The notes below the pieces were generated by a model. The model saw only the letters and a program-made list of their open reading frames with translations. It was not told the origin of the DNA and ran no database searches. A DNA stretch of 64,000 nucleotides from Pseudobutyrivibrio sp. (GTDB lineage Bacteria > Bacillota > Clostridia > Lachnospirales > Lachnospiraceae). How positions within the stretch are numbered: the first letter of the stretch is position 1; every line of letters starts with the position of its first letter. A program made the position numbers and the translations under genes. The stretch lies in contig NZ_SVEV01000001.1 of assembly GCF_015057185.1 (NCBI RefSeq), forward strand, positions 1 to 64,000, read 5' to 3'. Of this stretch, positions 12,924-39,285 are shown one piece after another.

Positions 12924-13011
12924 ATTCTGTAACTATCAAGCTCTTGGTGTTGCGCAACGAGACGTATCAGGCGAGTGGAGCAATATCCAAGGCTTGAGAG
13001 TGTAACAGAAT
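12924..13011 (+). repeat. Dispersed hairpin element, copy E1
   Basis: An 88-bp imperfect palindrome. Stems from outside in: ATTCTGT/ACAGAAT, CAAGC/GCTTG, CTTGG/CCAAG, TTGC/GCAA. The apical part carries CGAG (12958) and CGAG (12972) separated by 10 nt. It ends 21 nt before the purH start. Three other copies (20241, 39201, and inverted at 37053) share the layout with compensated stem changes. The family is not one I recognise. Confidence 0.85.
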
Positions 13012-13032
13012 TGTGGATTTGGAGGATTTTTT

Positions 13033-14211
13033 ATGAAGGAATTGGAATTAAAGTATGGTTGTAACCCAAATCAGAAGCCTAGTAGAATCTACATGGAAGA
13101 GGGAGAACTTCCAATTGAGGTGCTTTCAGGCAAACCAGGTTATATCAACTTTTTAGATGCATTTAATGGTTGGCAGCTTGTTTCTGAGCTTAAGCGCGCC
13201 ACAGGTCTTGCTGCTGCAACTTCATTTAAGCATGTAAGCCCAGCGGGAGCAGCTGTTGGGCTTCCTCTATCAGACGTAGAACGAAAGATTTATTGGTGTG
13301 ACGATTTAGATATGGAGTTCACTCCACTTGCAAATGCATATGCTAGAGCTCGTGGCGCAGACAGAATGTCTTCTTTTGGCGATTTCATTTCTCTTTCTGA
13401 TGTTTGCGACGTAGCTACTGCAAAGCTTATTAAAAGAGAGGTATCTGATGGTGTTATTGCACCAGGTTATGAGCCAGAAGCCCTTGAGATTCTAAAGGCA
13501 AAGAAGAATGGAAATTATGCAATTATCAAGATTGATCCTGCTTACGTACCAAAGCAGCTTGAGCGTAAAGAAGTATTTGGTATTACATTTGAGCAGGGAA
13601 GAAATGAGCTTGTTATTGATGATGATTTCTTTTCTAACATTGTTACAGAAAATAAAGAACTTACAGAGCAGGCAAAGATTGACCTCACTATCGCAATGAT
13701 TACTCTTAAGTATACTCAGTCAAATTCTGTTTGCTACGTAAAGGACGGACAGGCAATTGGTATTGGCGCTGGTCAGCAGTCTAGAATTCATTGTACACGT
13801 CTTGCTGGTCAGAAAGCAGATAACTGGTGGCTTCGCCAGTCTCCAAAGGTTCTTGCTCTTGATTTTGTAGATGGAATCAAGAGGGCTGATAGAGATAATG
13901 CGATTGATCTTTATATTGGTGATGAATTTGAGGATGTTATTGGTGATGATGTATGGGCCAAGACTTTCAAGACAAGACCTTCTGAGTTTACAAGAGCAGA
14001 AAAGCGCGCTTGGCTTGACAAGATGACTGATGTTTCAGTTGGCTCTGATGCGTTCTTCCCATTTGGAGATAATATCGAAAGAGCTCACAAGTCAGGTGTT
14101 AAATATGTTGCACAGCCAGGTGGCTCAGTAAGAGATGATAATGTTATTGAAACTTGCAATAAATACAATATGGTGATGGCATTTACAGGTCTTAGACTTT
14201 TCCACCACTAG
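13033..14211 (+). CDS. purH: AICAR transformylase, stand-alone (PurH formyltransferase half)
   Basis: The 392 residues correspond to the formyltransferase domain of PurH, transferring a formyl group from 10-formyl-tetrahydrofolate to AICAR. The Lys-His signature is present ([11 protein letters not shown]), as is the IGAGQQSR substrate loop. The MGS-like IMP cyclohydrolase domain of normal PurH (over 500 residues) is absent, and that activity is supplied by the gene at 12139. The ATG follows TTTGGAGG. The 5' untranslated part contains hairpin element E1. Confidence 0.93.
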
Positions 14212-14216
14212 AAATC

Positions 14217-14246
14217 AAGAAAACGGTCCATATGGGCCGCTTTCTT
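14217..14246 (+). terminator. Terminator after purH
   Basis: AAGAAA-a-CGGTCC paired to GGGCCG-c-TTTCTT with a 4-nt loop. The A-rich and T-rich arms make it usable in both directions, toward the convergent PepSY gene as well. Confidence 0.8.
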
Positions 14247-14280
14247 TGTATAGGAGAATATTAATGAAAAGAAAAATTGA

Positions 14281-14610
14281 TTAATTATCTAATTCGTAGC
14301 TAAGGATATTGCCTGTGGCAGCTTCAATTTCATAATTGTATTCTTGATGTCCAACCTGGAATTCTACTTCATAAACTTCTACGCCATCCTCAGTGTCCTT
14401 TTCAACTGAAGAATAAAGCAAGTCATCTTTTACAAATCCTGCATGCTCTAAAGCTGCTAAAAGCGCATAGTCTTCTGATACTTCTGTTGGCTCAGCTACA
14501 GTTGTTTTTGTTGAGACTTCATGTGCAAATGCAAATTGAGGTGTTGATAATGACATAATGAGAAGTGCGGTAATAAGTGTTAATGCTGCTGTAAATAAAC
14601 CTCTAAACAT
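14281..14610 (-). CDS. Secreted PepSY-domain protein
   Basis: The frame extends to 14688, but the ATG at 14610 has a perfect AGGAGG ten bases upstream on the minus strand, giving 109 residues. A signal peptide or N-terminal anchor with a cleavage-like AFAHE site is followed by one PepSY domain with the typical 'YEVEF-(x)-YNYEIEAATGNIL' pattern. PepSY domains are thought to inhibit or chaperone extracytoplasmic enzymes. The gene is convergent with purH and has a promoter with direct TGTGA repeats. Confidence 0.85.
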   Translation of the reverse strand: MFRGLFTAALTLITALLIMSLSTPQFAFAHEVSTKTTVAEPTEVSEDYALLAALEHAGFVKDDLLYSSVEKDTEDGVEVYEVEFQVGHQEYNYEIEAATGNILSYELDN

Positions 14611-14662
14611 AATTAAAACCTCCTGATTTATAAAAAGATGTTTTGTTTGATTTGTTGAGTTC

Positions 14663-14697
14663 ATTATAGTCCGCGGTTTATCACACAAGTGTCACAC
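14663..14697 (-). promoter_or_regulatory. Activator-type promoter of the PepSY gene
   Basis: On the minus strand a consensus TATAAT (14668-14663) has a poor -35 (CACTTG at 14691-14686). Two TGTGA direct repeats 11 bp apart (14696-14692 and 14685-14681) overlap the -35. This layout is typical of promoters activated by a response regulator. Which regulator binds is unknown. Confidence 0.45.
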
Positions 14698-14723
14698 TAC
14701 AGAAAAATGGGTGCATAGAAAAA

Positions 14724-14751
14724 TAAAAAAAGCAGGTTTTTAAGCCTGCTT
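14724..14751 (-). terminator. Terminator of tmcAL
   Basis: On the minus strand AAGCAGG/CCTGCTT is followed by a run of T residues. The hairpin overlaps the last codons and stop of tmcAL. Confidence 0.85.
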
Positions 14752-15933
14752 ATTAGAATTATTTATATTGTTAAGAGTAAATTTTCTTGTGTATTCATTA
14801 GGGAAGCCTGTTCCTGTCTTACTCGTTAATATAGCTTGATATATATTACTTGAGATAATATCAAATTCGCTTACTAGGTCTGCTTTTGGTGAAGTAAGCA
14901 GTGGAACATTATTATTTTCTTTAATAGCTGCTAAAAGTGAACTGCCATTTTTACTAAAACCAAGCATTCTTAAATAATTAATATATCCATTTTCTTTTGC
15001 CTGCTTAAAATCATCAGATGTTATTCCAAGGAGAATATGGCAAAGAACTCTTGAAATACGAGAATATTCTATGTTTTTGGTTTTAAGCTTTTCGCAGAAT
15101 TGTTTGTAATTAACAAAGTCTTTAATATTGTTTTTTATTCTATCGGACAAATCTGAAGAACAATCTAAGTATGAAGCAAAGCTATCTGTTGTGAGCAATT
15201 TATAATGCAACATAGGGGAAACGTCGTTATCGTACATAAAAGTCTCGTTGCTATATATATCAAGAGCCGCTTCAGGTACAGCATCAAAAGAATGTGATAG
15301 TTTATAGTGTTCTCTGATAGAGGAGGCAGAGCTCAATTCTCCGGATAGACTTAAATCATTGTAGCCATTACCTTGTCGCTTCATTATTTCTATATTCATT
15401 TTTAGGTTATTAGAAATGATATATCTACAATATTCGACCCCTAAAATATTATTTGGACTAGATATTATTTCTTCTGGCAAAAATGCTTTAAGGGCCTTGG
15501 CTCTAGCGGTGGCATAGCTTAAACCATTTGAAATGTAATAATTGATTTCACTGTCTAATTGACCTGACTTTTCTAAATCTACTAGCTTTTGCGCGCTTTC
15601 AATGAATAAATCCTTATCATCGCATTCGGCTGAAAATAGAAGAGTGTCCACGACCCCTGTACAAGCAAGGAGCTGTACACCAGCAGAAGAAAATTCTCTG
15701 GCTGATGAGGTGGCAAAAATAGTAGGAATCTCAAAAACAATATCAACGCCATTTACTAATGCAGCTTTTGCTCTTGTGTATTTATCAAAGCAGGCTATTT
15801 CACCACGTTGAGTGAAGGAGCCAGACATAGCTACTAAAACCTGTTTGGCTCCTAGAACAGATTTTGCATAGTCAATTTGAAGTTTATGTCCGTTATGGAA
15901 GGGATTATATTCTGCAACAATTCCTACAACCAT
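14740..15933 (-). CDS. tmcAL: tRNA(Met) cytidine acetate ligase
   Basis: TmcAL (formerly YlbM) uses ATP and acetate to make N4-acetylcytidine at the wobble position of elongator tRNA(Met). The 397 residues begin with the nucleotidyltransferase core: GIVAEYNPFHNGH contains the HxGH-type motif, then SGSFTQRGE and FEIPT strands. The C-terminal helical region is also full length. The ATG at 15933 has a GGAGG site on the minus strand. It is divergent from acetate kinase, whose reaction involves the same substrate, acetate. Confidence 0.93.
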   Translation of the reverse strand: MVVGIVAEYNPFHNGHKLQIDYAKSVLGAKQVLVAMSGSFTQRGEIACFDKYTRAKAALVNGVDIVFEIPTIFATSSAREFSSAGVQLLACTGVVDTLLFSAECDDKDLFIESAQKLVDLEKSGQLDSEINYYISNGLSYATARAKALKAFLPEEIISSPNNILGVEYCRYIISNNLKMNIEIMKRQGNGYNDLSLSGELSSASSIREHYKLSHSFDAVPEAALDIYSNETFMYDNDVSPMLHYKLLTTDSFASYLDCSSDLSDRIKNNIKDFVNYKQFCEKLKTKNIEYSRISRVLCHILLGITSDDFKQAKENGYINYLRMLGFSKNGSSLLAAIKENNNVPLLTSPKADLVSEFDIISSNIYQAILTSKTGTGFPNEYTRKFTLNNINNSNKQA

Positions 15934-15983
15934 TTTTGTTCCTCCGAAAATACTTTTATTCCCTATTATACATTAAAATTTGG

Positions 15984-16011
15984 TTGAGAAGACAAATATT
16001 AATGATATAAT
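15984..16011 (+). promoter_or_regulatory. Promoter of ackA
   Basis: TTGAGA and TATAAT separated by 16 nt, 64 nt upstream of the ackA start. Confidence 0.6.
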
Positions 16012-16075
16012 AATATAGTTGTTTGAATTACAAATTAAAGAAAGATTATAAATAAAGAAAGGAACTCAAACTATT

Positions 16076-17272
16076 ATGAAGATTTTAGTTATCAACTGTG
16101 GTAGTTCATCACTTAAGTATCAGGTAATTGATTCTGAAAGTGAGCAGGTACTTTGCAAGGGCCTTTGCGAGAGAATTGGTATCGACGGACGTATCGTTTA
16201 CCAGAAGGCAGGTCTTGACAAGGAGACTACTGACATTGCAATGCCTACACATAAGGAGGCAGTTGCTGCAGTTATCGATGCAATCACAAATGCAAAGACA
16301 GGCGCTATCGCTTCACTTGATGAAATCGATGCTGTAGGACACAGAGTAGTACATGGTGGTGAGAAGTTTGCTGCTTCTGCACTTATCACAGATGAGATGA
16401 TCAAGGTAGTAGAGGAGTGTAATGATCTTGCACCTCTTCATAATCCAGCTAATATCATCGGTATCAATGCTTGCCGTGATCTTATGCCAGGTAAGCCACA
16501 GGTTGGTGTTTTTGATACTGCATTCCACCAGACAATGCCTAAGGAAGCATATATGTATGCAGTACCTTACAAATATTATGAGCAGTACGGCGTTCGTCGT
16601 TATGGATTCCATGGTACATCACACAGCTATGTTTCAAAGCGTGTAGCTGAGATGGATGGATGTGACCTTAAGAACTCTAAGATTATCGTTTGCCACATCG
16701 GTAACGGTGCATCTTGCTGTGCTGTACTTAACGGTGAGTCAGTAGATACTTCTATGGGACTTTCTCCACTTGAAGGTCTTGTTATGGGTACACGTTCTGG
16801 TGATATCGATCCTTCAGCTGTAGAATTCATGGCTAAAAAGGAAGGTCTTGATTTTGCAGGCGTTATGAATGTTCTTAATAAGGAGTCTGGCGCTCTTGGT
16901 ATTTCTGGAATTTCATCAGATTTCCGTGATCTTATTGCTGCATCTGCAAAGGGCAATGAGAGAGCAAAGCTTGCTATGGATATGATTGCATATCGTATCG
17001 CTAAGTATGTAGGCGCTTACGCAGCAGCTATGAATGGTGTAGATATCATCTGCTTCACAGCTGGTCTTGGCGAGAACAATGCAGGTCTTAGAAAGGCTGT
17101 TTGTGATCACCTTGGATTCATGGGCGTTGAGCTTGATGATGCTAGAAATGATGTAGCAGGCGAGGAGAGACTTGTTTCTTCTGATTCTTCAAAGGTTAAG
17201 GTATATGTTGTACCTACAAACGAAGAGGTTATGATTGCTAGAGATACAGCAGCTATCGTTTCTGGAAAGTAA
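16076..17272 (+). CDS. ackA: Acetate kinase
   Basis: AckA interconverts acetyl phosphate plus ADP and acetate plus ATP, the energy-yielding last step of acetate fermentation. The 398 residues have the ASKHA signature motifs VINCGSSSLKYQ at the N terminus, GHRVVHGG, FDTAFHQ with the catalytic Asp, the RRYGFHGTSH segment and a final TNEEVMIARD helix. Phosphotransacetylase, often the upstream neighbour, is not in the window. Codons are strongly biased toward abundant ones, consistent with high expression. Confidence 0.98.
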   Translation: MKILVINCGSSSLKYQVIDSESEQVLCKGLCERIGIDGRIVYQKAGLDKETTDIAMPTHKEAVAAVIDAITNAKTGAIASLDEIDAVGHRVVHGGEKFAASALITDEMIKVVEECNDLAPLHNPANIIGINACRDLMPGKPQVGVFDTAFHQTMPKEAYMYAVPYKYYEQYGVRRYGFHGTSHSYVSKRVAEMDGCDLKNSKIIVCHIGNGASCCAVLNGESVDTSMGLSPLEGLVMGTRSGDIDPSAVEFMAKKEGLDFAGVMNVLNKESGALGISGISSDFRDLIAASAKGNERAKLAMDMIAYRIAKYVGAYAAAMNGVDIICFTAGLGENNAGLRKAVCDHLGFMGVELDDARNDVAGEERLVSSDSSKVKVYVVPTNEEVMIARDTAAIVSGK

Positions 17273-17307
17273 TCTTTAAATATAGTGTTAATTTTTAAAG
17301 AAAATGT

Positions 17308-17336
17308 TTGACAACTATATTTGAGCTATGTATAAT
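17308..17336 (+). promoter_or_regulatory. Consensus promoter of the yceD-rpmF operon
   Basis: A perfect TTGACA and perfect TATAAT with a 17-nt spacer, 26 nt upstream of the start at 17363. It is the best sigma-A match I found in the window. Confidence 0.85.
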
Positions 17337-17362
17337 TGACAAAGTGTGGATAGGAGATATTT

Positions 17363-17893
17363 ATGAAGATTTCTATAAAAGATATTACTTCATTACCTGA
17401 TCAAAATAAGAAGTTTGCTGGAACTTGTGACATACATGATTTTTCTTATCTTGGCAGTGATTTTTCTATCAATCACGTAGAGCCATTTGAGGTAGTTTTA
17501 TCTATGATTGGCACTGGTAAGCTTCACATTGTTTTTAATACTAATACTAGTATTGTCGGAGCATGTGATAGATGTCTTACAGAGGTCACATTTGAGGTTC
17601 CTATTAATGTTGATGAGACTGTTGAGGTTTCTGAGGGACAGGTAGTAGCTGATGATGATTTAGGTCCTTATTCATTTGTTGATGGTGAGGAAATAGACGT
17701 AGATGAACTTATTTTAAACGAGATCTTAGTGAATTTCCCGGCAAAGATATTGTGCCAGGATGACTGCAAGGGTATTTGCCCAGTTTGCGGCAAGAATCGT
17801 AATTTAAATGATTGTGGCTGCGACGACACAGTCTTAGATCCTAGAATGGCACAATTTTTAGATGTCTTTAATAGCTTTAAGGAGGTGAAATAG
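17363..17893 (+). CDS. YceD/DUF177 family protein
   Basis: DUF177 proteins are nearly always encoded before rpmF, as here, and have been linked to 23S rRNA or ribosome maturation in bacteria and plastids. The 176 residues include a CDRCL motif mid-protein and a C-terminal cluster of cysteines (CQDDCKGICPVCGKN and CGC), a probable zinc site. The start has a GGAGAT site. rpmF begins 2 nt after its stop, so the pair is an operon. Confidence 0.9.
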   Translation: MKISIKDITSLPDQNKKFAGTCDIHDFSYLGSDFSINHVEPFEVVLSMIGTGKLHIVFNTNTSIVGACDRCLTEVTFEVPINVDETVEVSEGQVVADDDLGPYSFVDGEEIDVDELILNEILVNFPAKILCQDDCKGICPVCGKNRNLNDCGCDDTVLDPRMAQFLDVFNSFKEVK

Positions 17894-17894
17894 C

Positions 17895-18074
17895 ATGTCT
17901 ATTTGTCCAAAGAACAAATCTTCTAAGGGAAGAAGAGATAAAAGAAGAGCAAACTGGAAAATGAGCAACCCAACACTCGTTAAGTGCAGCAAGTGCGGCG
18001 AGCTTATGGTACCACATAGAGTTTGCAAGAACTGTGGATCATACAACAAGAAAGAGATCATTACAGTAGAGTAA
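17895..18074 (+). CDS. rpmF: Ribosomal protein bL32
   Basis: Fifty-nine residues starting MSICPKNKSSKGRRDKRRAN, the normal bL32 length. It is the zinc-binding form, with two Cys pairs (CSKCG and CKNCG). The GGAGGTG site lies in the last codons of the preceding gene. It is followed at once by a strong terminator. Confidence 0.97.
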   Translation: MSICPKNKSSKGRRDKRRANWKMSNPTLVKCSKCGELMVPHRVCKNCGSYNKKEIITVE

Positions 18075-18081
18075 TCGATAG

Positions 18082-18110
18082 CCCCTCGCGATATGCGAGG
18101 GGTTGTTTTT
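18082..18110 (+). terminator. Terminator after rpmF
   Basis: A perfect 8-bp stem CCCCTCGC/GCGAGGGG with a 5-nt loop, then TTGTTTTT. Confidence 0.93.
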
Positions 18111-18114
18111 ATAT

Positions 18115-18143
18115 TTGAATTATTCCCTTATATAAAGTATAAT
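18115..18143 (+). promoter_or_regulatory. Promoter of plsX
   Basis: TTGAAT and TATAAT separated by 17 nt, 28 nt upstream of the plsX start. No FapR-like palindrome is obvious. Confidence 0.65.
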
Positions 18144-18171
18144 TTTTGAGTATGTTAGAAAGGGAGATACT

Positions 18172-19194
18172 ATGAGTGAGTATATTGTTGTTGCACTTGA
18201 TGCAATGGGAGGCGACAACGCACCTTCTGAGATGGTAAAGGGCGCTGTTGATGCGATTAATTCTAATAAAGAAGTTAAGGTTGTTCTTGTTGGAAAAGAA
18301 GATGTTATCAATACAGAACTTAGTAACTACACATACAACAAAGAACAGATTTCAATAAAAAATGCTACTGAGGTTATAGAGACAGCAGAGCATCCAGTTA
18401 TGGCTATCAAAAGAAAAAAGGATTCATCTATGGTAGTTGGTCTTCATTTGGTAAAGGATGGAGAGGCTGATGCATTTGTTTCTGCCGGCAATTCAGGTGC
18501 CTTATTAGTAGGAGGACTTGGCATTGTTGGACGAATTAGAGGTATAGAACGTTCTCCTTTTGGAGCACTGATTCCTACTAAGACAGGCGTTGCACTTCTT
18601 GTGGACTCTGGATCTAACGTTGACTGTCGTTCTAGTCATCTTGTTCAGTTCGCAAAAATGGGTAGCATTTACATGGAAAAAGCTCTTGGAATCAAAAATC
18701 CTAGAGTTGCCATTGTTAATAACGGGGCCGAAGAAGAAAAGGGAAACGCTCTTGTAAAAGAGACTATGCCTCTTCTTAAAGAATGTTCAGATATCAACTT
18801 TATTGGCGGTTTAGAGGCTAGAGAAATTCCGGCTGGTGCTGCTGATGTTATTGTTTGTGATGGCTTTGTTGGCAATGCTATTCTTAAGACCTATGAGGGT
18901 GTGGCAAGCACATTACTTTCTGTATTTAAAGAAGGTCTTACATCTAATCTTAAATCTAAAATTGGCGCAGCACTTGCGTTGCCTTCGCTTAAAAATAAGC
19001 TTAAAGCCTTTGATGCCACACAGTACGGTGGAGCTCCACTTCTTGGATTAAATGGCCTTGTTGTCAAGACTCACGGTAGTGCTAAGGCTGGAGAGGTTAA
19101 AAACACAATCTTCCAGTGTGCTACCTTCAAGGAGCAGAGAATTAATGAGCATATTAGAGAAAATATTGTTATAGAAAAGAAGAAGGAGGAATAG
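18172..19194 (+). CDS. plsX: Phosphate acyltransferase PlsX
   Basis: PlsX converts acyl-ACP to acyl-phosphate, the donor used by PlsY for the first acylation of glycerol-3-phosphate. The 340 residues start with the conserved VALDAMGGDNAP and include the SAGNSGA and VCDGFVGN motifs. acpP, encoding its acyl carrier, starts 3 nt after its stop. plsY and gpsA, which complete phosphatidic acid precursor synthesis, lie about 20 kb downstream. Confidence 0.97.
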   Translation: MSEYIVVALDAMGGDNAPSEMVKGAVDAINSNKEVKVVLVGKEDVINTELSNYTYNKEQISIKNATEVIETAEHPVMAIKRKKDSSMVVGLHLVKDGEADAFVSAGNSGALLVGGLGIVGRIRGIERSPFGALIPTKTGVALLVDSGSNVDCRSSHLVQFAKMGSIYMEKALGIKNPRVAIVNNGAEEEKGNALVKETMPLLKECSDINFIGGLEAREIPAGAADVIVCDGFVGNAILKTYEGVASTLLSVFKEGLTSNLKSKIGAALALPSLKNKLKAFDATQYGGAPLLGLNGLVVKTHGSAKAGEVKNTIFQCATFKEQRINEHIRENIVIEKKKEE

Positions 19195-19197
19195 AAA

Positions 19198-19434
19198 ATG
19201 GAATTCGATTTATTGAAGGAGATTATTGCTGAGGTACTCAATGTAGATGCCGCAGAAATCAAAGAGAGCACTACATTTGTTGATGATCTTGGTGCTGATT
19301 CTCTTGATGTATTCCAGATTATCATGGGTGTTGAGGAAAAGCTTAACATCGAGGTAGACACAGATGCAGCTGAGAAGCTTTCTACAGTAGGTGATGCTGT
19401 AGAGCTTATCAAAAAGACAGTTGCAGAGAAATAA
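19198..19434 (+). CDS. acpP: Acyl carrier protein
   Basis: Seventy-eight residues of acidic four-helix acyl carrier protein. The phosphopantetheine attachment site is the Ser in the GADSLDV motif. The AGGAGG site lies at the end of plsX, so the two genes are cotranscribed. It serves fatty acid and phospholipid synthesis. Confidence 0.97.
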   Translation: MEFDLLKEIIAEVLNVDAAEIKESTTFVDDLGADSLDVFQIIMGVEEKLNIEVDTDAAEKLSTVGDAVELIKKTVAEK

Positions 19435-19442
19435 GAATGTAA

Positions 19443-19480
19443 TGCGCATTGACGAATACTAATCGCCAATGCGCAAATTT
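19443..19480 (+). terminator. Strong hairpin between acpP and rnc
   Basis: TGCGCATTG-a-CGA pairs with TCG-c-CAATGCGCA, then a short AATTTT run. A second small stem (ATCCAG/CTGGAT) follows at about 19487. The T-run is weak, so it may be a partial terminator or processing site that lowers rnc expression relative to acpP. Confidence 0.6.
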
Positions 19481-19527
19481 TAAGTATCCAGAGTTCCTGG
19501 ATGCTTCTTTAAACTCAGGAGGAAAAA

Positions 19528-20229
19528 TTGAAGGATTTAAAAGAATTTCAAAAAACTATCGGATATGAGTTTAGAGACGAAAGCTTATTACGTCAGGCAT
19601 TAACCCATAGTTCTTATGCCAACGAGCATCATATGAAAAAGCTTTCAGATAATGAGAGACTTGAGTTTTTAGGTGATGCTGTACTTGAGATTGTATCTAG
19701 TGAGTTTTTGTATCTAAATTATACTGATCTAAACGAAGGCAAGCTTTCTAGACTTAGAGCTAGTATTGTTTGTGAGCCTACACTCGCATATATTTGCAAG
19801 GAGATTAATCTTGGTGATTATGTGCTACTTTCAAAGGGCGAAGATATGACTGGTGGACGCAATAGAAAGTCTATTCTCTCTGATGCCTTTGAAGCTACTA
19901 TTGGAGCTATTTTCCTTGATGGCGGTATGGAACCAGCTTCAGAGTATATTCATCGTTTTGTTTTAAATGATATTGAGCATAAACAGCTGTTTTATGATAG
20001 CAAGACTCGTTTGCAGGAGGTTATCCAGGCAAACTTTAAGGAGCCACTTACATATAATTTGATTTCTGAGAGCGGACCGGACCATGCTAAAGAATTCAAG
20101 GTTGAGGCTGTTGTTGGCGACAAAGTTTTGGGTTATGGAATAGGTCATACAAAAAAGGCAGCTGAGCAAGAGGCTGCATACGAAGGTCTTATGAAACTCC
20201 ATAAAGAGGAGTCTATAAAGATAATTTAA
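19528..20229 (+). CDS. rnc: Ribonuclease III
   Basis: RNase III cuts double-stranded RNA, including rRNA precursors and structured leaders. The 233 residues have the catalytic signature NERLEFLGDAVLE, a second acidic site in DAFEATIGAIFLD and a C-terminal double-stranded RNA-binding domain ending KKAAEQEAA. The start is TTG at 19528, eight bases after AGGAGG. The gene is followed by a long hairpin element (E2) before smc, itself a possible substrate. Confidence 0.96.
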   Translation: MKDLKEFQKTIGYEFRDESLLRQALTHSSYANEHHMKKLSDNERLEFLGDAVLEIVSSEFLYLNYTDLNEGKLSRLRASIVCEPTLAYICKEINLGDYVLLSKGEDMTGGRNRKSILSDAFEATIGAIFLDGGMEPASEYIHRFVLNDIEHKQLFYDSKTRLQEVIQANFKEPLTYNLISESGPDHAKEFKVEAVVGDKVLGYGIGHTKKAAEQEAAYEGLMKLHKEESIKII

Positions 20230-20240
20230 TTTATAAGCTA

Positions 20241-20325
20241 GCTGGTAACTATCAAGCTCTTGGTGTTGCATAGCGAGACATGTAGTCGAGTAATGCAATA
20301 TCCAAGGCTTGAGAGTGTAACCAGC
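20241..20325 (+). repeat. Dispersed hairpin element, copy E2
   Basis: An 85-bp imperfect palindrome between rnc and smc: GCTGGT/ACCAGC, CAAGC/GCTTG, CTTGG/CCAAG, TTGCA/TGCAA. CGAG occurs at 20274 and 20287 (9-nt spacing). It ends 31 nt before the smc start. The segments AACTATCAAGCTCTTGGTGTTGC and GGCTTGAGAGTGTAAC-type flank are nearly identical to E1, whereas the outer stem differs and remains paired. Confidence 0.85.
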
Positions 20326-20356
20326 GGGGAGTATAAAATAAACTTGGGAGAGTAAA

Positions 20357-28418: not shown

Positions 28419-28449
28419 TAGGCCTGATGATTAATCAGGCCTATATTTT
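28419..28449 (+). terminator. Terminator after khpA
   Basis: A perfect 10-bp stem TAGGCCTGAT/ATCAGGCCTA with a 5-nt loop, then TATTTTT. It separates rpsP-khpA from rimM-trmD, so readthrough would set the lower level of the latter. Confidence 0.9.
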
Positions 28450-28465
28450 TGTTTAGGAGAAAAAT

Positions 28466-28984: not shown

Positions 28985-28986
28985 CT

Positions 28987-29697: not shown

Positions 29698-29822
29698 TGT
29701 GAGAAATTGGTTGAATTATGCCAGTAATCATGTTAATATGTTAAAGTTGCTAAAGAAGAGATGGTCCGCTGATTTGCAATAGGGCATTTCAAGAACGTCG
29801 CGAGAATTTAGGAGGATTTAAA

Positions 29823-30173: not shown

Positions 30174-30183
30174 TCTCGAAAGG

Positions 30184-30218
30184 GGAACAGTCACATTTGT
30201 GACTGTTCCTTTATTTTT
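30184..30218 (+). terminator. Terminator after rplS
   Basis: A perfect 11-bp stem GGAACAGTCAC/GTGACTGTTCC with a 4-nt loop, then TTTATTTTT. Its position inside a longer upstream frame of the next gene argues for the later lepB start. Confidence 0.93.
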
Positions 30219-30276
30219 ATGGAAATTAAATCCAAAGTGCGGTATATTTATACTAAAGATTAAAAGGGAAAATTGT

Positions 30277-30873: not shown

Positions 30874-30882
30874 AGGTGTTAT

Positions 30883-31725: not shown

Positions 31726-31726
31726 C

Positions 31727-32407
31727 ATGAAGGTTATCGACTTTAACGAAGAAGAAATACAAATCAAAAGAGATATTGAAAAAGCTCGAGCAAATGCAAA
31801 GGAAATAGAAGATTTAAGTGATTTTGAATCTAAAAAATCAAAAGATTTAGATGATGTAGAAGAAATCACAAAAAAATCTATAGCAAAGGAAGTAATTAGC
31901 GTTATTATTAATGTTTTAATTTGCTTCGCTGTAGTATTTTTGATTACCCACTTTGTAGGACAACGTACTGTTGTTAGCGGAAAATCAATGGAAGACACCT
32001 TGTCCAATGGAGATAATCTTATCGTAGACAAAATAAGCTATAGGATTCATGACCCAGAAAGATTTGATGTTATAGTGTTCCCTTACAAAGAGGAGGAAGA
32101 CACATATTACATTAAACGAATCATTGGCTTGCCAGGTGAAACAGTTTATATTGATGGTTCAGGAAATATTTATATTAATGGCGAAATCTTAGAGGAAAAT
32201 TATGGTACAGAAACCATATTAAATGCTGGAAATGCAAGCACTGAAATAATCCTTAAGAATGACGAATACTTTGTTCTAGGCGATAATAGAAATAACAGTA
32301 CTGATTCTAGAATGATAGGTTGTATAAAGCATGATGATATTGTTGGAAAAGCTTGGTTAAGGGTTTATCCATTTAATTCATTTGGTTTAGTGGACAATAT
32401 AGAATAA
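31727..32407 (+). CDS. lepB: Signal peptidase I (copy 2, with long N-terminal extension)
   Basis: A TTG at 31709 is in frame inside rbgA, but the ATG at 31727 follows GAAAGG and is preferred, giving 226 residues. Unlike copy 1, it has an acidic, probably coiled N-terminal cytoplasmic region of about 50 residues. One membrane helix then precedes the catalytic Ser (SGKSMEDTL) and Lys (YIKRIIGLPGE). The GDNRNNSTDSR box is present. Multiple type I peptidases with different preferences are common in Firmicutes. Confidence 0.95.
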   Translation: MKVIDFNEEEIQIKRDIEKARANAKEIEDLSDFESKKSKDLDDVEEITKKSIAKEVISVIINVLICFAVVFLITHFVGQRTVVSGKSMEDTLSNGDNLIVDKISYRIHDPERFDVIVFPYKEEEDTYYIKRIIGLPGETVYIDGSGNIYINGEILEENYGTETILNAGNASTEIILKNDEYFVLGDNRNNSTDSRMIGCIKHDDIVGKAWLRVYPFNSFGLVDNIE

Positions 32408-32410
32408 GTT

Positions 32411-33175
32411 ATGAGCGAAAAAAAGATTTCTGATATCCAAAAAGAATACAAAGAGGCCACAATTGATGTATTGCCAGATTTTATTCAGGAGTACATTAGT
32501 GATGGACGCCCAGGAGTTTCTAAGCTAATCGGTCAGGCTCAAAAGCGTATGGAAAAACTCAGAATTGAGAAGGAGCGTATTGAGAAGCTAAAGGAATTCG
32601 AATACAAGTACTGGGAAAAATGTGATTACGTTGGTGGAATTGATGAGGTTGGAAGAGGTCCTCTTGCCGGACCAGTTGTTACAGCCTGTGTAGTTTTACC
32701 AAAAGATTGCGATATATTATATATAAACGATTCTAAAAAGCTATCTGCTTCAAAGCGTGAGGAGCTTTACGAAGAAATAATGGAAAAGGCACTTTCAGTA
32801 TCAATAGGTGTGGTTTCCGAAGCCAGAATCGATGAGATTAATATTCTTCAAGCTACATATGAGGCTATGAGACAGGCTATTAATGATTCAAAGGTACAGC
32901 CTCAGGTTATGCTTAACGATGCAGTTACAATTCCTGGCATAGATATACCTCAGGTGCCTATTATAAAGGGGGATGCTAAATCTATTTCTATTGGTGCAGC
33001 CAGCATTATTGCTAAGGTTACAAGGGATAGAATGATGGTAGAATACGATAGCATTTATCCGGAATATCATTTTGCATCAAATAAAGGATATGGATCAGCA
33101 GAACACATTGAAGCGCTTAAAGAATATGGACCATGTCCAATCCATAGAAGAACTTTTATCGGAAACTTTGTTTAA
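32411..33175 (+). CDS. rnhB: Ribonuclease HII
   Basis: RNase HII removes RNA primers and single ribonucleotides from DNA. After about 75 N-terminal helical residues, as in Bacillus RnhB, the catalytic core starts with GIDEVGRGPLAGP (first acidic pair). Further conserved parts are NDSKKLSASKRE, the Asp in GDAKS and the C-terminal HRRTF. The 254-residue length is normal for Firmicutes. It follows the signal peptidase by 3 nt. Confidence 0.97.
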   Translation: MSEKKISDIQKEYKEATIDVLPDFIQEYISDGRPGVSKLIGQAQKRMEKLRIEKERIEKLKEFEYKYWEKCDYVGGIDEVGRGPLAGPVVTACVVLPKDCDILYINDSKKLSASKREELYEEIMEKALSVSIGVVSEARIDEINILQATYEAMRQAINDSKVQPQVMLNDAVTIPGIDIPQVPIIKGDAKSISIGAASIIAKVTRDRMMVEYDSIYPEYHFASNKGYGSAEHIEALKEYGPCPIHRRTFIGNFV

Positions 33176-33191
33176 TGTGTAGTGGTGAGTC

Positions 33192-35072
33192 ATGAATATT
33201 AATACTGGGTTCAATCCATACAACTCCAATTTTGTTAATAATGCTGACTTGACTAAAATGAGCCAAAGTCAGTCTCTTACAGCCGCGCCTAAGGACAGCT
33301 TAAAGGAGGGAGAGGTATTCGAGGGCTCAGTTAATTCTATTGATAATGGAAAGGTTGTCATAGGGCTGGCTAATGGCCAAACAATGACAGCCCGTCTAGA
33401 TGCAGGGGTTAATTTAACTCCAGGTCAATCAGTTTTCTTTCAGGTTAAGAGTAACGATGGTAGCTTGATTCAGCTCAAACCTGTCTCTTTAGGTTCACTA
33501 GAGGCGAATCCAACTTTGTTAAAAGCATTAGATTTGGCCAATATTGCCGCCAATGACCGTACAATCAATATGGTCAATTCCATGATGCAAAATTCTATGT
33601 CTGTAAATCCAGAGAGCTTGACGGCTATGAATAGGGCTATGATAAATAACCCTGGAGTAGATGTGCAGACATTAGTAACTATGGCAAAGTATGGAATGGA
33701 AATAACACCAGAGAATGTTTCCATGTTTGAAAACTATGCCAATGACAAAGCGGTATTAATTGATAATTTTAAAGTTATATCAGATATGCTACCAGAATTA
33801 ATGACTTCTTCTGATGTTACAGTTGAAGAAGCATTAAATATTAATAATCAGATTAGAGAGATTTTCTTGCCAAATGAACCACAAGCAGCCGGTGAAATAA
33901 CAGGTCAAAATGAGACATTAGTTCAACAAACCAACACTGGACAACCAGAAAATGTGGCTAGCTCCAATGAAAATCCTACTAATGTGCTTAATGATGCAAG
34001 TATTACAAATGGTACTGTTTTAGATAAAGGTGTTACATTTAATCAGTTGGTAAATGCCGATGGTATTCTAGAAAGTATTACTAATCCTCAAGGGACTGTA
34101 AATAATGGCCCTGAGGCTTTAAAACAAGCTGAGACTATTGTTCCTAATGAACAAAATGCTGGGCAGAGCATTCAGGCTCAGAATCAACTGGCTTCAAATG
34201 AGGTAGGAGTTCAACTTCTAAATAATTTTGCAGGGGAAGAGCAAATCAACTCCTTTAATACATTGTTAAACAATCTTCCTGACTTTCCAAAGGATAATAT
34301 GCAAATATTTAGTGAGGATGGTACGCTTAAGGCCGAGGCGCCTATAAAAGAAGTATTTAGAGAAATTAGCGACTTTTTAAATGAGCATCCAGATATTCCA
34401 AAAGCTACATTGAATGATATAATTCGTTCACCTTTATACAAAGGTCTTTTAAAGAATCTTATTTCAGATAGCTTTACCATGGAGCCTAAGGATGTAACAA
34501 AGCCTGGAGAAATTGGCAAGCTTTATGAGCGTGTTTTAAAACAAACAGATGCATTGGAAAAGCTTGTGGCAGCCTTTGGTAATAAGGCCGCTGAAACCAT
34601 AAAAGCTCAGACCAATGAAATTAAGCAAAACGTTAATTTTATGAATTCTGCCAACGAGATGTATAACTTTGTGCAGATACCGCTTAAAATGTACAATCAG
34701 AATACTGACAGTATGTTATATGTTCGTCAGAACAAAAAGAGTAGCTACGAGGCAGGAGAAGAAATAACTGCATTTTTGCATTTTGACATGGAGCATCTAG
34801 GACCTACAGATGTATTTGTCTCATTAAAGGAAGCAAATGTAGGCTGTAAATGGAATTTAGCCGATGAAATGGCTATGAATTTAATTGAACAAAATCTGGA
34901 TATATTAACCCAAAGACTTGAAAGTAAAGGCTTTACTGTAAAGTCGGAAGTGACCTGTAAAGAGCCAAAGGCAAGCTTTGTCGAGGATTTCTTAGGAGCT
35001 TCTCCAATAGAGAATAATAATTCTTCTACAGAAGGAATTATGCACAGGTATAGCTTTGATATGAGGGCATAA
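33192..35072 (+). CDS. FliK-like protein (YlqG-type)
   Basis: This 626-residue protein resembles the YlqG position in the Bacillus ylqF-rnhB-ylqG-ylqH block. An N-terminal beta-rich domain (about 35-105, 'GEVFEGSVNSIDNGKVVIGL') is followed by a long, Asn/Gln-rich, low-complexity middle. The C-terminal region (about 495-600: 'FVQIPLKMYNQ' and 'AFLHFDMEHLGPTDVFVSL') resembles the FliK hook-length-control C-terminal domain. It is followed after 2 nt by an FlhB-tail homologue, the natural partner of FliK. No other type III export genes are near, so its role outside hook-length control is open. Confidence 0.75.
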   Translation: MNINTGFNPYNSNFVNNADLTKMSQSQSLTAAPKDSLKEGEVFEGSVNSIDNGKVVIGLANGQTMTARLDAGVNLTPGQSVFFQVKSNDGSLIQLKPVSLGSLEANPTLLKALDLANIAANDRTINMVNSMMQNSMSVNPESLTAMNRAMINNPGVDVQTLVTMAKYGMEITPENVSMFENYANDKAVLIDNFKVISDMLPELMTSSDVTVEEALNINNQIREIFLPNEPQAAGEITGQNETLVQQTNTGQPENVASSNENPTNVLNDASITNGTVLDKGVTFNQLVNADGILESITNPQGTVNNGPEALKQAETIVPNEQNAGQSIQAQNQLASNEVGVQLLNNFAGEEQINSFNTLLNNLPDFPKDNMQIFSEDGTLKAEAPIKEVFREISDFLNEHPDIPKATLNDIIRSPLYKGLLKNLISDSFTMEPKDVTKPGEIGKLYERVLKQTDALEKLVAAFGNKAAETIKAQTNEIKQNVNFMNSANEMYNFVQIPLKMYNQNTDSMLYVRQNKKSSYEAGEEITAFLHFDMEHLGPTDVFVSLKEANVGCKWNLADEMAMNLIEQNLDILTQRLESKGFTVKSEVTCKEPKASFVEDFLGASPIENNNSSTEGIMHRYSFDMRA

Positions 35073-35074
35073 TT

Positions 35075-35362
35075 ATGGCAGAGGAAAAACAGTTTGATAA
35101 AAATAAAACAGCGGTAGCCCTTTCTTATGAGGCAGGGGATGCTGCGCCTAAAATTCTTGCATCCGGCAAAGGCTATGTGGCTGAGCAGATTATCGAAGAG
35201 GCTAAGAAGGCTGATGTGCCATTTTATCAGGATAATGAATTGGCAGAAACCTTAAGCAAGCTGAATATAGGTGATGCAATTCCGCCAGAGCTGTATGAGG
35301 TAGTTGCAGAGATTTTAGTGTTTGTTAATGATATGGAAAAGCTTAAAGCTAAATTAGGATAG
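35075..35362 (+). CDS. FlhB C-terminal domain homologue (YlqH-type)
   Basis: The 95 residues match the cytosolic C-terminal domain of the export gate protein FlhB: 'AVALSYEAGDAAPKILASGKG' through 'PFYQDNELAETLSKLNIGDAIPPELYEVVAEIL'. There are no membrane helices and the self-cleaving NPTH motif is missing; the Asn-Lys-Thr at that place is not cleavable by the usual mechanism. The gene is coupled to the FliK-like gene, so the two probably interact. A role as competitor or regulator of export substrate switching is inference. Confidence 0.85.
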   Translation: MAEEKQFDKNKTAVALSYEAGDAAPKILASGKGYVAEQIIEEAKKADVPFYQDNELAETLSKLNIGDAIPPELYEVVAEILVFVNDMEKLKAKLG

Positions 35363-35371
35363 AGGTAATTA

Positions 35372-35731
35372 TTGAATAATAGAAAGCAAGGAAATGATTT
35401 TGAAAAGCTAGCAGCTGATTTTCTTGAGAAAAACGGCATGCAGATTATACAAATGAATTTTTATTGTAAAATGGGCGAAGTAGATATTATTGCAAAAGAT
35501 GGTAGCTATTTAGTCTTTGTAGAAGTAAAATATAGAAAGTCTGCTTCAAAAGGAAATGCTGCTTCGGCGGTTACATTTCCCAAAATGCGTAAAATTTCTC
35601 GAGTGGCAGATTATTATATGTATAGCCATAAATATGGTGGCAATACAAGTGTTAGGTTTGATGTTATAGCAATAGAGGAAGGACATCTTACGCATTATAA
35701 AAATGCGTTTGAGTATATACCCGTATGTTAA
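35372..35731 (+). CDS. yraN: YraN/UPF0102 nuclease-fold protein
   Basis: The 119 residues begin at TTG 35372 behind AGAGGTAA. The endonuclease-like core is visible: GNDFEKLAADFLEKNG, then the GEVDIIAKDG and VFVEVKYRKS strands with the Asp/Glu/Lys set of restriction-endonuclease-fold proteins. It commonly lies near rnhB. Its exact substrate is unknown; a role in DNA processing has been suggested. The next gene overlaps it by 7 nt. Confidence 0.93.
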   Translation: MNNRKQGNDFEKLAADFLEKNGMQIIQMNFYCKMGEVDIIAKDGSYLVFVEVKYRKSASKGNAASAVTFPKMRKISRVADYYMYSHKYGGNTSVRFDVIAIEEGHLTHYKNAFEYIPVC

Positions 35732-37044
35732 ATTCTAGTCATAAAATTAAAGAAGTAATGGAAGGCAGCCCGGCTGAAAGGGCAGGGCTAAAACCTGGAG
35801 ATATTATTACAAAAATTAATAATGTAGAGCTTGCGGATATATTTGACTATCATTATTATTCCGACGATGCGGATATTACAGTGGAGTTACTGCATGAAGA
35901 TGGCTCAAATTCTTCAAAATTTGTAGAAAAAGAAGAAGGAGAAGATTTAGGTGTTATTTTTTGTAATGGTTTAATGGATGATTACAAATCCTGCTCCAAT
36001 AAATGTGCCTTTTGCTTTATTGATCAAATGCCACCAGGCATGAGAGAAACCCTTTATTTCAAGGATGATGATACACGTCTTTCATTTTTACAAGGCAATT
36101 ATGTAACATTGACAAATATGAAGATGGCAGATTTGGATCGTATCATTGCATATAAGCTTGGACCAATTAATATTTCTGTTCATGCTACAAATCCTGAGCT
36201 TAGAATGAAGCTTTTACATAATAGATTTGCTGGTGATATTTTAGACAAAATCCGAAAGCTTTACGAGGCGGAGATTCCAATGAATGCTCAGGTTGTTTCT
36301 TGCCCAGGACTTAATGATGGTCCAGAGTTAGATAGAACAATCGGTGATTTGTTAGAATTTGCTCCAGTGATGAGCTCGATGTCTGTAGTACCTGTTGGAG
36401 TTACCAAATTTAGAGATGGCCTGTTTCCGCTTCGAACTTATACAGCTGAAGAGGCAGGCAGGGTAATTGACCAGATAGAGCATTGGCAAGATATTTCCAT
36501 GGAAAAAATAGGCAATCACTTTGTTCAGGCCAGTGATGAATGGTATATTTTGGCAGGAAGACCGCTGCCAGAAGCTTCTAGATATGATGGTTTTATACAA
36601 TTGGAAAATGGCGTTGGAATGCTTCGTCTTCTAAAAGAAGAAGTACTAGATGCCTTGGAGGATATTAAAAAGCCTCTATTTATGAAAAAGCGCAAGGTTA
36701 CAATTGCAACCGGCAAACTGGCAGCTCCATTTATGGCAGAATTAGGGCAGCTTATTACAGAAAAATTTAACAGGGTAACAGTAGAAGTTATTCCTATTAC
36801 TAACAACTTTTTTGGTGAACAAATTACTGTATCAGGCTTGATTACTGGTCAGGATTTGATTGCTCAATTAAAAGATAAGAACCTAGGTGATAGCTTATTA
36901 CTTAGCTGTACCATGTTAAGAGCTCAGGAAGAGGTTTTCCTTGATGATATAACCCTTCAGGAGCTTGAGGAAACTTTACAAGTTCGCACCCGTATTGTAC
37001 AATCAGACGGTCGCGATTTAGTTTATGCAATAATTGGACGCTAG
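35725..37044 (+). CDS. DUF512 family protein with PDZ and radical-SAM-like Cys motif
   Basis: The 439 residues begin with a PDZ-like domain (about 8-60, GSPAERAGLKPGD), then a cysteine cluster CSNKCAFCFID of the CxxxCxxC type expected to hold a 4Fe-4S cluster, and a TIM-barrel-like middle. The C-terminal DUF512 region follows (about 280-430). This fusion is conserved in clostridia and often precedes der, as here. Its reaction is unknown; radical SAM chemistry is inferred from the Cys spacing. The start overlaps yraN. Confidence 0.9.
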   Translation: MLNSSHKIKEVMEGSPAERAGLKPGDIITKINNVELADIFDYHYYSDDADITVELLHEDGSNSSKFVEKEEGEDLGVIFCNGLMDDYKSCSNKCAFCFIDQMPPGMRETLYFKDDDTRLSFLQGNYVTLTNMKMADLDRIIAYKLGPINISVHATNPELRMKLLHNRFAGDILDKIRKLYEAEIPMNAQVVSCPGLNDGPELDRTIGDLLEFAPVMSSMSVVPVGVTKFRDGLFPLRTYTAEEAGRVIDQIEHWQDISMEKIGNHFVQASDEWYILAGRPLPEASRYDGFIQLENGVGMLRLLKEEVLDALEDIKKPLFMKKRKVTIATGKLAAPFMAELGQLITEKFNRVTVEVIPITNNFFGEQITVSGLITGQDLIAQLKDKNLGDSLLLSCTMLRAQEEVFLDDITLQELEETLQVRTRIVQSDGRDLVYAIIGR

Positions 37045-37052
37045 GTTGTGTT

Positions 37053-37141
37053 AAAAATCTTACGTCCACAATAATTAGATATTCTCCGCTCGACTGAAAC
37101 GTCTCGCTTGAGAACACTAATACATTGTGAACTAGATTTTT
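37053..37141 (-). repeat. Dispersed hairpin element, copy E4 (inverted)
   Basis: Read on the minus strand, the layout is the same as in E1-E3: outer stem AAAAATCT/AGATTTTT, then CACAAT/ATTGTG, TTAG/CTAA and TTCTC/GAGAA. The apical segment has CGAG-N10-CGAG, and the loop AAGCGAGACGT is shared with E1/E3. It is antisense to the flanking genes and ends 59 nt before der. A TATAAT lies at 37153 between it and der. Confidence 0.8.
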
Positions 37142-37200
37142 ATTGAACTATATATAATTGATAAATAAATCGTCTTCACGATTTTGGAAAGAGGTAATTT

Positions 37201-38526
37201 ATGGCAAGACCAGTTGTGGCTATAGTTGGACGTCCTAATGTTGGTAAGTCCACATTATTTAATGCTCTTGCAGGAGAGCGAATTTCTATTGTAAAAGACA
37301 CTCCAGGTGTTACAAGAGATAGAATATATGCTGACGTTAGTTGGCTAAATTACGATTTTACAATGATTGATACAGGCGGTATTGAGCCTGATACAAAGGA
37401 TATTATTTTATCTCAGATGCGTGAGCAGGCTCAAATTGCTATCGATACAGCTGATGTAATCATTTTTCTTGTAGACGTTAAACAGGGCTTACAGGATAGT
37501 GATTCAAAGGTTGCTGATATGCTTCGTAGAAGCCATAAGCCGGTTGTTCTTGTTGTAAACAAGGTTGACAGCTTTGAGCGTGATATGGCTGATGTATACG
37601 AATTCTATAATTTAGGTATTGGTGACCCAATCCCTGTTTCTGCATCATCTAGATTAGGTTTTGGTGATATGCTTGATAAGGTTACTGAATATTTCCCAGA
37701 GCCATCAGAAAACGAGGAAGAAGACGACACACCAAGGATTGCAGTTATTGGTAAACCAAACGTTGGTAAATCATCATTGATTAATAAGCTTTGCGGTGAG
37801 GAGCGAGTTATTGTTTCTGATATTGCAGGAACTACACGTGATGCTGTAGATACTAGAGTTCGTTATAATCACAAGGACTATATTTTCATTGATACAGCAG
37901 GCCTTCGTAGAAAGAGCAAAATCAAAGAAGATTTAGAGCGTTATTCAATTGTTAGAGCAGTTGCTTCTGTTGAAAAGGCTGATGTTGTCATTATCATGAT
38001 TGATGCAACAGAAGGTGTAACTGAGCAGGATGCTAAAATCGCAGGTATTGCTCATGAACGTGGAAAGGGTATAATTATTTGTGTAAACAAATGGGATGCC
38101 ATTGAAAAGAATGACAAGACTATGAAAGAGCATGAGACAAAGATACGTCAGATTCTTTCGTTTATGCCTTATGCATCAATTCTTTTCATTTCAGTTAAAA
38201 GCGGACAGCGTCTCGGCAAAATTTACGAGACAATTGATGCAGTAATTGAAAACAATTCAATGCGTATTGCAACAGGTGTACTTAACGAAATTGTTTCTGA
38301 GGCTGTTGCTCTTCAGCAGCCACCTACAGATAAGGGTAAGAGGCTCAAAATCTTTTACACTACACAGGTTGCTGTTAAGCCACCAACATTCGTTATATTC
38401 GTAAACGAAAAGTACCTGATGCACTTTTCTTATGTAAGATATCTTGAGAATCGAATCAGAGATGCTTTCGGTTTTGAAGGAACATCTTTGAAATTTATAA
38501 TTAGAGAGAGAAAGGAAAACGAATAA
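37201..38526 (+). CDS. der: GTPase Der (EngA)
   Basis: Der is an essential 50S assembly GTPase. The 441 residues contain two tandem G domains, [12 protein letters not shown] near residue 10 and [12 protein letters not shown] near 184, each with its DTGG/DTAGL and NKVD/NKWD motifs, and a C-terminal KH-like domain. The ATG follows a GAAAGAGG site. plsY overlaps the stop codon. Confidence 0.98.
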
Positions 38527-39185
38527 TGAGCATTGTGGGGAGAATACTGGCTATATTAATCGGTTATTGTTTTGGAATGGTTTTAATGGGCTACCTAATT
38601 GGAAAGTCAAAGAACATCGACTTAACAAAGGTTGGTAGCGGTAATGTTGGTTCTACAAATACAATGAGAAATCTTGGCGTTACAGCTGGATTAATTACAC
38701 TGGCTTGGGACTGCTTAAAGTGCGTTGTTGCTTGCTTCTTTGTATGGTTAATATTTGGTATTTTTGTAGAAAACGTTAATATTTATATGGTATATGCTGG
38801 ATTGGGCGTTGTATTAGGTCACGACTTCCCTTGCTACATGCATTTCAAAGGTGGAAAGGGTGTAGCATCTACTCTTGGATTCATTATTGCCTTGTTCCCA
38901 ATGGGACTTCCTATTCCTGCAGGAATTTTCATTGCCCTTGTAGCATTAACTAGATATGTATCACTTGGCTCAATTATTGGTGAGTTATCTTTTGCAATAG
39001 AGATAATTGTGGCAGCAGCCCTTGGACTTTTATCAGAAAAATACCCAGGTGGTCAGCTCAAAGAAGTTGTGATTATTTGCTGCTTAGTTTCAGCTTTATC
39101 AATTGCACTTCATCATGCAAATATTAAGCGTCTTCTTTCTGGAACAGAAAACAAGTTTTCATTTCACCCAGAAACTAGAGCGTAA
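38526..39185 (+). CDS. plsY: Glycerol-3-phosphate acyltransferase PlsY
   Basis: PlsY is a polytopic membrane enzyme that moves the acyl group from acyl-phosphate (made by PlsX) to glycerol-3-phosphate. The 219 residues have about six membrane helices and the loop motifs GSGNVGSTNTMRNLG, HDFPCYMHFKGGKGVA and GSIIGE-like segment. The ATG overlaps the last base of der (TAATG). gpsA, which makes its glycerol-3-phosphate substrate, follows after hairpin element E3. Confidence 0.97.
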   Translation: MSIVGRILAILIGYCFGMVLMGYLIGKSKNIDLTKVGSGNVGSTNTMRNLGVTAGLITLAWDCLKCVVACFFVWLIFGIFVENVNIYMVYAGLGVVLGHDFPCYMHFKGGKGVASTLGFIIALFPMGLPIPAGIFIALVALTRYVSLGSIIGELSFAIEIIVAAALGLLSEKYPGGQLKEVVIICCLVSALSIALHHANIKRLLSGTENKFSFHPETRA

Positions 39186-39200
39186 ATACTAGTAAACTAA

Positions 39201-39285
39201 GCTGGTAGGCATCAAGCTCTTAGATTTCTCAAGCGAATCGTATTAGATGAGCGGAGAAATTCTAAGGCTTGTAGCTGTGACCAGC
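39201..39285 (+). repeat. Dispersed hairpin element, copy E3
   Basis: An 85-bp imperfect palindrome: GCTGGT/ACCAGC, CAAGC/GCTTG, CTTAG/CTAAG, ATTTCTC/GAGAAAT. Relative to E2, CTTGG/CCAAG has become CTTAG/CTAAG and the inner stem is replaced by an unrelated but still perfect one, which is compensatory change. The core is CGAA-N10-TGAG instead of CGAG-N10-CGAG. It ends 29 nt before gpsA. Confidence 0.85.

Follow-up and report, generated by a model that had tools for sequence, protein, structure and literature searches.

A hairpin family in Pseudobutyrivibrio

The 64,000-nucleotide stretch of Pseudobutyrivibrio sp. DNA analysed here (contig NZ_SVEV01000001.1, positions 1 to 64,000; the window) carries four copies, E1 to E4, of a structured hairpin element. 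E1 (12922-13012, the extent given by the covariance model; forward strand) lies between an IMP-cyclohydrolase-like gene and a PRK07106-type AICAR formyltransferase gene, E2 (20238-20327, forward strand) between rnc and smc, and E3 (39198-39287, forward strand) between plsY and gpsA, while E4 (37053-37142, reverse strand) is antisense to both of its neighbours, a TIGR03279-like radical SAM gene and der. In E1, as read via the RNAalifold structure of the forward strand, the outer stem is formed by TTCTGT (12925-12930) and ACAGAA (13005-13010), the latter directly preceded by an unpaired GTA (13002-13004). The initial annotation had placed four elements with a common nested-stem layout in this stretch, and each of them is present where it was placed. 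PurH looks split at the E1 site (12139-14211), with a PurO-type IMP-cyclohydrolase-like gene, whose match is below the cut-off, before E1 and the PRK07106-type gene after it.

For each of the four elements, none of 200 shuffled sequences equalled the RNA folding energy (-38 to -45 kcal/mol, z -5.2 to -8.9), and RNAalifold places 29 pairs in the common fold, 18 of which have changed on both sides. The proposal of a shared fold with compensatory changes is thus borne out. The opposite strand of E4 folds to -23.7 kcal/mol, as against -38.2 kcal/mol, which gave a first hint that the constraint sits on one strand. Within the window, a covariance model of the four copies recovers them at 91.6-101 bits, with everything else at or below 14.8 bits.

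When this model was applied to the 3.25-Mb genome, at least 109 matches were obtained at E<=1, each spanning model positions 1-90; as 150 of 983 first-look candidates were scored, 109 copies is a lower bound. The earlier observation is therefore correct, and larger than stated: the four members of the proposed family are real, but its size was understated. A model of a larger alignment finds at least 140 copies in genome G002, at least 50 in G009 and at least 71 in G011. The search for further copies also extended across the genus (Pseudobutyrivibrio by named matches), where 23 of 25 genomes contain the element, as opposed to none of 16 genomes of other families. These cross-genome copy numbers are lower bounds, obtained with stricter filters of 106 candidates per genome for the genus and the other families, and of 14 for a family-wide scan. 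Under the latter, strict filter, two of 299 genomes contain the element, both of them in this genus, and it was found in none of the 297 outside. An exact DNA pattern, which divergent members would escape, occurs in at least 108 stretches of a named collection, and the 80 titles listed are all Pseudobutyrivibrio. The same pattern found no stretch among viral contigs, and a viral location of the element was accordingly discarded.

The initial annotation had recognised no known family, in which it was right as far as Rfam 15 is concerned. No match was found over the whole window at the gathering threshold, and with relaxed thresholds the elements stayed without a match, both in 12800-39400 (E<=5) and in 13 further loci (E<=0.5), which rules out a known Rfam RNA class for the copies searched. 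Furthermore, the portions of the open-access literature that were searched contain no description of this hairpin family.

Anatomy, covariation and strand

The element is approximately 90 nt long and consists of a variable outer stem and a core of about 75 nt, which runs from GTAR to GTAAC. The outer stem is usually 7 bp, can reach 22 bp, and differs in sequence from site to site. The large alignment was built from 100 of 105 fetched loci of the window's genome, leaving out the copies of L106 and L132; covariation was assessed on 109 distinct rows, and letters were counted on the 107 complete copies that remain once two contig-cut repeats are dropped. In these 107 copies the 5' GTAR has G in 100, T in 105 and A in 107, followed by G (85) or A (20). 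Its G8 and T9 pair with C158 and A157, while A10 is kept unpaired in all 107, opposite a GTA that is also preserved (G 106, T 107, A 103). A bulged T is retained in 104 copies, and the apical loop follows the pattern C-RTKYYA-G. The CGAG...CGAG core that had been described at the apex corresponds to a tandem G.A internal loop, which is indeed common; it is not invariant, however, as normal Watson-Crick pairs replace it in some copies (L102 and L107, for example).

Two further observations concern this architecture. At the gpsA sites of G043 (L168, 2539-2633) and G013 (L171, 2534-2629), members of a divergent subfamily, marked by an additional long stem and an apex of the GAGAGTATAG type, stand behind the usual outer stem. 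In L014, two more GTRACCAGCGG ends follow a complete element in tandem on its 3' side, and are possibly relics of earlier occupants.

The mean pairwise identity between copies is 63%, and 97.6% of stem cells are paired in the 109 rows. Both-side changes are seen in 26 of the 29 pairs, the 500 shuffles fall short on every one of five covariation measures, and pairing falls to 24-39% when the partner is slid by one to three columns. This is covariation beyond chance, as expected of a functional RNA, in an alignment that was fitted to the model and hence leans towards its structure. The earlier suggestion of selection on a folded RNA or a palindromic DNA is supported by the same figures, which lie far above both the shuffles and the slid controls. 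Of the three outcomes named beforehand as refuting it, namely a lack of other copies in the genome, an Rfam hit and no covariation in a larger alignment, none was observed. The outer arms, the most variable part between sites, are nevertheless paired in 99.7% of cells.

The stems of the 107 complete copies contain 98 G.T cells versus 10 A.C cells, and this excess indicates that one strand is constrained. The constraint holds whatever the direction of the neighbouring genes: the 18 copies that are antisense to both neighbours are 98.3% paired, with 15 G.T and no A.C cells. Since the antisense copies are equally well paired and show the same excess, the fold constraint does not simply act on the mRNA of the neighbours.

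Genomic context and terminator-like stems

The copies look intergenic, as they overlap only the start side of longer mechanical open reading frames (ORFs) or ORFs of fewer than 90 codons. Gene contexts were derived from such mechanical ORFs in 3-kb loci. Fifty-nine of the 107 copies are co-directional with their neighbours, 16 are antisense to both, 19 lie between convergent and five between divergent genes, with one neighbour unclear for eight; under a stricter gene rule these numbers become 65, 18, 17, 4 and 3, respectively. The median distance from the 3' end to the next gene edge under the stricter rule is 19 nt for co-directional, 11.5 nt for antisense and 17 nt for convergent copies.

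Contig C25 of the window's genome (G000) harbours 13 copies, 11 of them inside 26 kb (15602-41526; loci L079, L106, L019, L129, L126, L098, L066 and L119) and 10 of these 11 in the same orientation; random placement gave 11 in none of 2000 trials. Six proteins from this cluster were identified by Pfam as an epimerase, an aminotransferase, two glycosyltransferases, a sugar transferase and a glycosyl hydrolase 25, and the stretch therefore has the look of a surface-polysaccharide cluster, whose shuffling may be marked or assisted by the elements. On contig C1 of G011, 49 of 56 copies (those listed of 71 matches) fold on the strand with positive GC skew. Replication strand was rejected as the cause of this orientation, since gene direction is confounded with it in G011, and the fourfold-site skew tracks coding direction and gives no separation at convergent sites (21/41).

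The outer stem reaches at least 10 pairs in 59 of 269 distinct copies. A copy was called terminator-like if it combined such a stem with a T-rich 3' flank, a rule that 16 of the 107 copies pass and 91 fail. In the window's genome, terminator-like copies occupy 13 of 17 convergent sites versus three of 90 other contexts (Fisher p 6.5e-11). Neither this nesting of part of the family nor its patchy presence at orthologous sites was foreseen by the initial annotation.

The site 3' of thrC was compared in 27 genomes. Six of them (G000, G004, G013, G015, G021 and G022) have the core inside a stem, while 14 have a bare terminator according to a script (a weak call in G002 and a gap in G009 not being counted); a bare hairpin is visible by eye in G011 and G017, and G002 and G014 show no clear hairpin. 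Two pairs of forms stand out here. A bare GAGCCC-TTA-GGGCTC occurs in G012 and G016, and G000, which these two genomes adjoin in a four-protein tree (no support values shown), has GAGCCCCGG...CCGGGGCT around the core. Similarly, GAGCCCCTA is bare in G017 and surrounds the core in G013. The thrC sites of G043 (L346) and G010 (L355) carry long hairpins at the terminator position that the model does not match, perhaps further hairpin families.

Bare and filled forms also occur in L216, with a bare ACACCT(18 nt)AGGTGT and a T tract, and in L242 and L224, with the core between nearly the same arms; the right flanks of L216 and L242 are 91% identical over 350 nt. Likewise, the convergent site by the neighbour gene of recN is bare in G003 and G006 (by script) and in G009 (by eye), and contains the core in G004 and G042. 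At this site G002 has the core in the opposite orientation within the same GCTGG/CCAGC arms, and elements with inverted flanking arms could invert by recombination. Precise excision was considered and dropped, as the sole core-less form, at the thrC site of G009 (L356), is probably an assembly artefact. This core-less hairpin flanks a run of N on either side; such elements seem to break or mislead assemblies.

A probable mobile hairpin, its rivals and known systems

The element is best read as a genus-specific, non-autonomous mobile hairpin that is required to fold on one strand, a reading to which we assign a probability of roughly 0.4. It would move as one folded single strand, either single-stranded DNA or RNA, and might enter existing stem-loops, its mover recognising the unpaired letters; the outer stem at convergent gene pairs is mostly a terminator-like stem with a T tract. 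In favour of this reading stand the many copies, the folding constraint on one strand regardless of gene direction, the association with terminator-like stems, and the bare and filled forms at the thrC site and in L216, L242 and L224.

The presence of the element at orthologous sites is patchy: it is found in 13 of 28 genus loci between rnc and smc, and in 14 of 28 between plsY and gpsA. At the latter site, the core has clearly been replaced by another subfamily behind the same arms, as G022 and G009 have flanks that are 93.8% identical, identical outer arms and a core identity of 0.49. When all pairs from the same site are pooled, identity is 0.70 for the variable outer pairs versus 0.42 at random, and 0.64 for the core versus 0.62. 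This at first pointed to an exchange of cores at fixed stems, yet the near-random core value arises because three sites supply 157 of the 210 distinct pairs. In 12 of 14 pairs with flanks of at least 85% identity, core identity is 0.82 or more. A candidate target-site duplication, GCGTAA, flanks E3 on either side and is present a single time in two empty sites (L164 and L173); other sites show no clean pattern. Between the two genes where L072 has the element, L277 has a different insert (around 3781-3990), which the model does not list.

Several results weigh against a mobile hairpin. Taken as per-site means over 33 groups, core identity is 0.72 versus 0.62 at random and that of the outer arms 0.60 versus 0.42, with outer arms above random in 25 groups and cores in 26; cores are hence mostly inherited with the site. 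Flanks identical to 80% or more, the same outer arms and a core below 0.75 come together in five of 39 pairs, all at plsY-gpsA. A general rule that the core moves freely while the stem stays was dropped in view of the per-site means, as it holds clearly at one site only. A clean empty site showing a target duplication was not encountered, even the closest filled and empty pairs differing in their flanks as well, and the four-protein tree does not separate gain from loss. Most bare terminators at element-filled sites carry different stems, and core entry into an existing loop is accordingly shown for a few sites at best. As to machinery, a Y1 transposase (PF01797) was found in only 10 of 29 genus genomes and is missing from the high-copy G011, G012 and G016, while the 12 Y1 loci searched contained no element. 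Reverse transcriptase was found in 15 of the 29 genomes only, and not in the high-copy G011, G013 and G016, for which reason spread driven by this enzyme was rejected. No genome of the 29 has an integron integrase over the TIGR02249 cut-off; the weaker matches are tyrosine recombinases, which are also present in all 14 control genomes. None of these three enzymes, then, tracks the family, and the mover would be either a protein yet to be named or one of the host's own pathways, for example recombination among the copies.

Truncated remains are rare in the loci scanned. Half-models at 12 bits gave 387 and 395 matches in the fetched loci, most of which were picked for carrying the element, and four (5') and five (3') distinct matches were without their other half. 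Short end relics numbered 19 versus 18 and 10 versus 7 in a reversed control, over 105 loci of the window's genome, with the copies in five of these loci left unmasked. With orphan halves equally rare on both sides and end relics about as frequent as in reversed sequence, truncation as a sign of target-primed reverse transcription was rejected.

The per-site means that weaken the mobile reading strengthen another, namely that the hairpin is an RNA module serving the host, bound by a genus-specific protein which sets the stability, processing or termination of around 100 transcripts, and that it spread and was kept as useful in place. We regard this as quite possible. Between 59 and 65 of the 107 copies are co-directional between genes, with their 3' ends at a median of 19 nt from the next mechanical start, and the cores are mostly inherited with their sites. 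Where orthologues at one site remain similar, most changes in the stems come with compensation (196 both-side, 42 one-side and 59 broken, summed over non-independent pairs). The scarcity of truncated copies, the terminator-like form at convergent sites and the eleven copies that punctuate the polysaccharide gene cluster are also in keeping with such a module. It is less easily reconciled with the 18 antisense copies, in which the fold is preserved on the same strand, again with the G.T excess, with the patchy presence at the two sites above, or with the neighbours of the four window copies, which are unrelated housekeeping genes.

The bolder part of the mobile reading is that the core enters stem-loops, which a few sites support and on which most are indecisive. 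In its explicit form, the unit would be a folded core lacking its own termini that enters the apical loops of stem-loops, above all of intrinsic terminators, and that can later be exchanged at the same stem, the host stem being a lasting acceptor. A terminator would be lengthened rather than broken, because the cargo is itself a hairpin. We consider this version unlikely, and the per-site means weaken it as they do the mobile reading as a whole.

It is improbable that the element is an unusual member of the repetitive extragenic palindromic (REP) and REPIN repeats, moved in trans on folded single-stranded DNA by a Y1, HUH transposase of the REP-associated tyrosine transposase (RAYT) type. Its GTAR does mark the 5' base of the core hairpin, and its irregular stem and strand specificity recall the REPs of Escherichia coli, as the available portion of their description has them (PMC8266576). 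REPs are, however, given as palindromes of 20-40 bp with an unpaired GTAG in the part of PMC3733652 consulted, whereas here the G and T are paired and the hairpin measures about 90 nt. The Y1_Tnp domain is, moreover, missing from 19 of 29 genomes, among them the high-copy G011, G012 and G016, and the 12 Y1 loci are free of elements.

Even less probable is an origin of the covariation in mutation alone, in which hairpin-templated repair (quasipalindrome correction) would hold the two arms complementary in the absence of selection. It is known that template switching acts on long inverted repeats, and the high pairing of the most variable outer arms would fit this process. Template switching should, however, erase the mismatches that are kept (the A opposite GTA in 107 of 107 copies, the bulged T in 104 of 107), G.T and A.C would be expected in equal numbers where 98 and 10 are observed, and the dispersal of the element is left unexplained. 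That the copies are attC-like recombination sites, whether belonging to an integron or forming a group of orphan sites, is suggested by a folded, bulged site of variable sequence and kept structure and by the single cluster of 11 copies with 10 in one orientation, but is extremely doubtful given that the 29 genomes showed no integrase over the cut-off, the polysaccharide genes within that cluster and the dispersal of most copies.

Across more than 100 genomic copies, the family shows with great clarity a structural constraint that is specific to one strand, and sister species hold bare and filled versions of a site. Such sister sites render testable the old question of whether hairpin repeats in bacteria act selfishly or for the benefit of their host. 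The family also points to a novel mechanism that would distinguish stem-loops from other DNA or RNA, and the annotation of terminators and operons in this rumen genus should account for it.

The general kind, that of dispersed intergenic hairpins such as the REP and bcr repeats, is already known. Integron attC sites and other folded single-stranded DNA substrates likewise keep their structure while their sequence varies, with one strand as the substrate; attC sites differ in their integrase, which none of the 29 genomes has above the cut-off. Group IIC introns insert next to terminator hairpins, yet an intron is much longer than the element, and 14 of the 29 genomes, some with many copies, have no reverse transcriptase. 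The copies share no fixed terminal inverted repeats of the kind expected of a miniature inverted-repeat transposable element (MITE), as the sequence of the outer arms changes between sites.

In the descriptions available in part, REP and REPIN repeats with their TnpA-REP (RAYT) resemble the family as high-copy, strand-specific extragenic hairpins with a GTAG-like 5' tag and an irregular stem, patchily distributed among species. The element differs from them in length, in the paired G and T of its tag, in the 19 genomes that lack a Y1 gene, and in an outer stem that varies by site and is partly nested in terminator-like stems. The repeats bcr1-bcr18 of the Bacillus cereus group are likewise group-specific intergenic repeats of Firmicutes, some MITE-like and some with a conserved RNA structure (PMC3446304); compared by description only, they are credited with neither a variable outer stem nor terminator nesting in the part of that source consulted. 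From intrinsic terminators the family is set apart by the 91 of 107 copies that fail the terminator-like rule and by a loop that holds a structured core of about 75 nt, while the 16 copies that pass resemble terminators in sequence, with 10 or more outer-stem pairs and a 3' flank rich in T.

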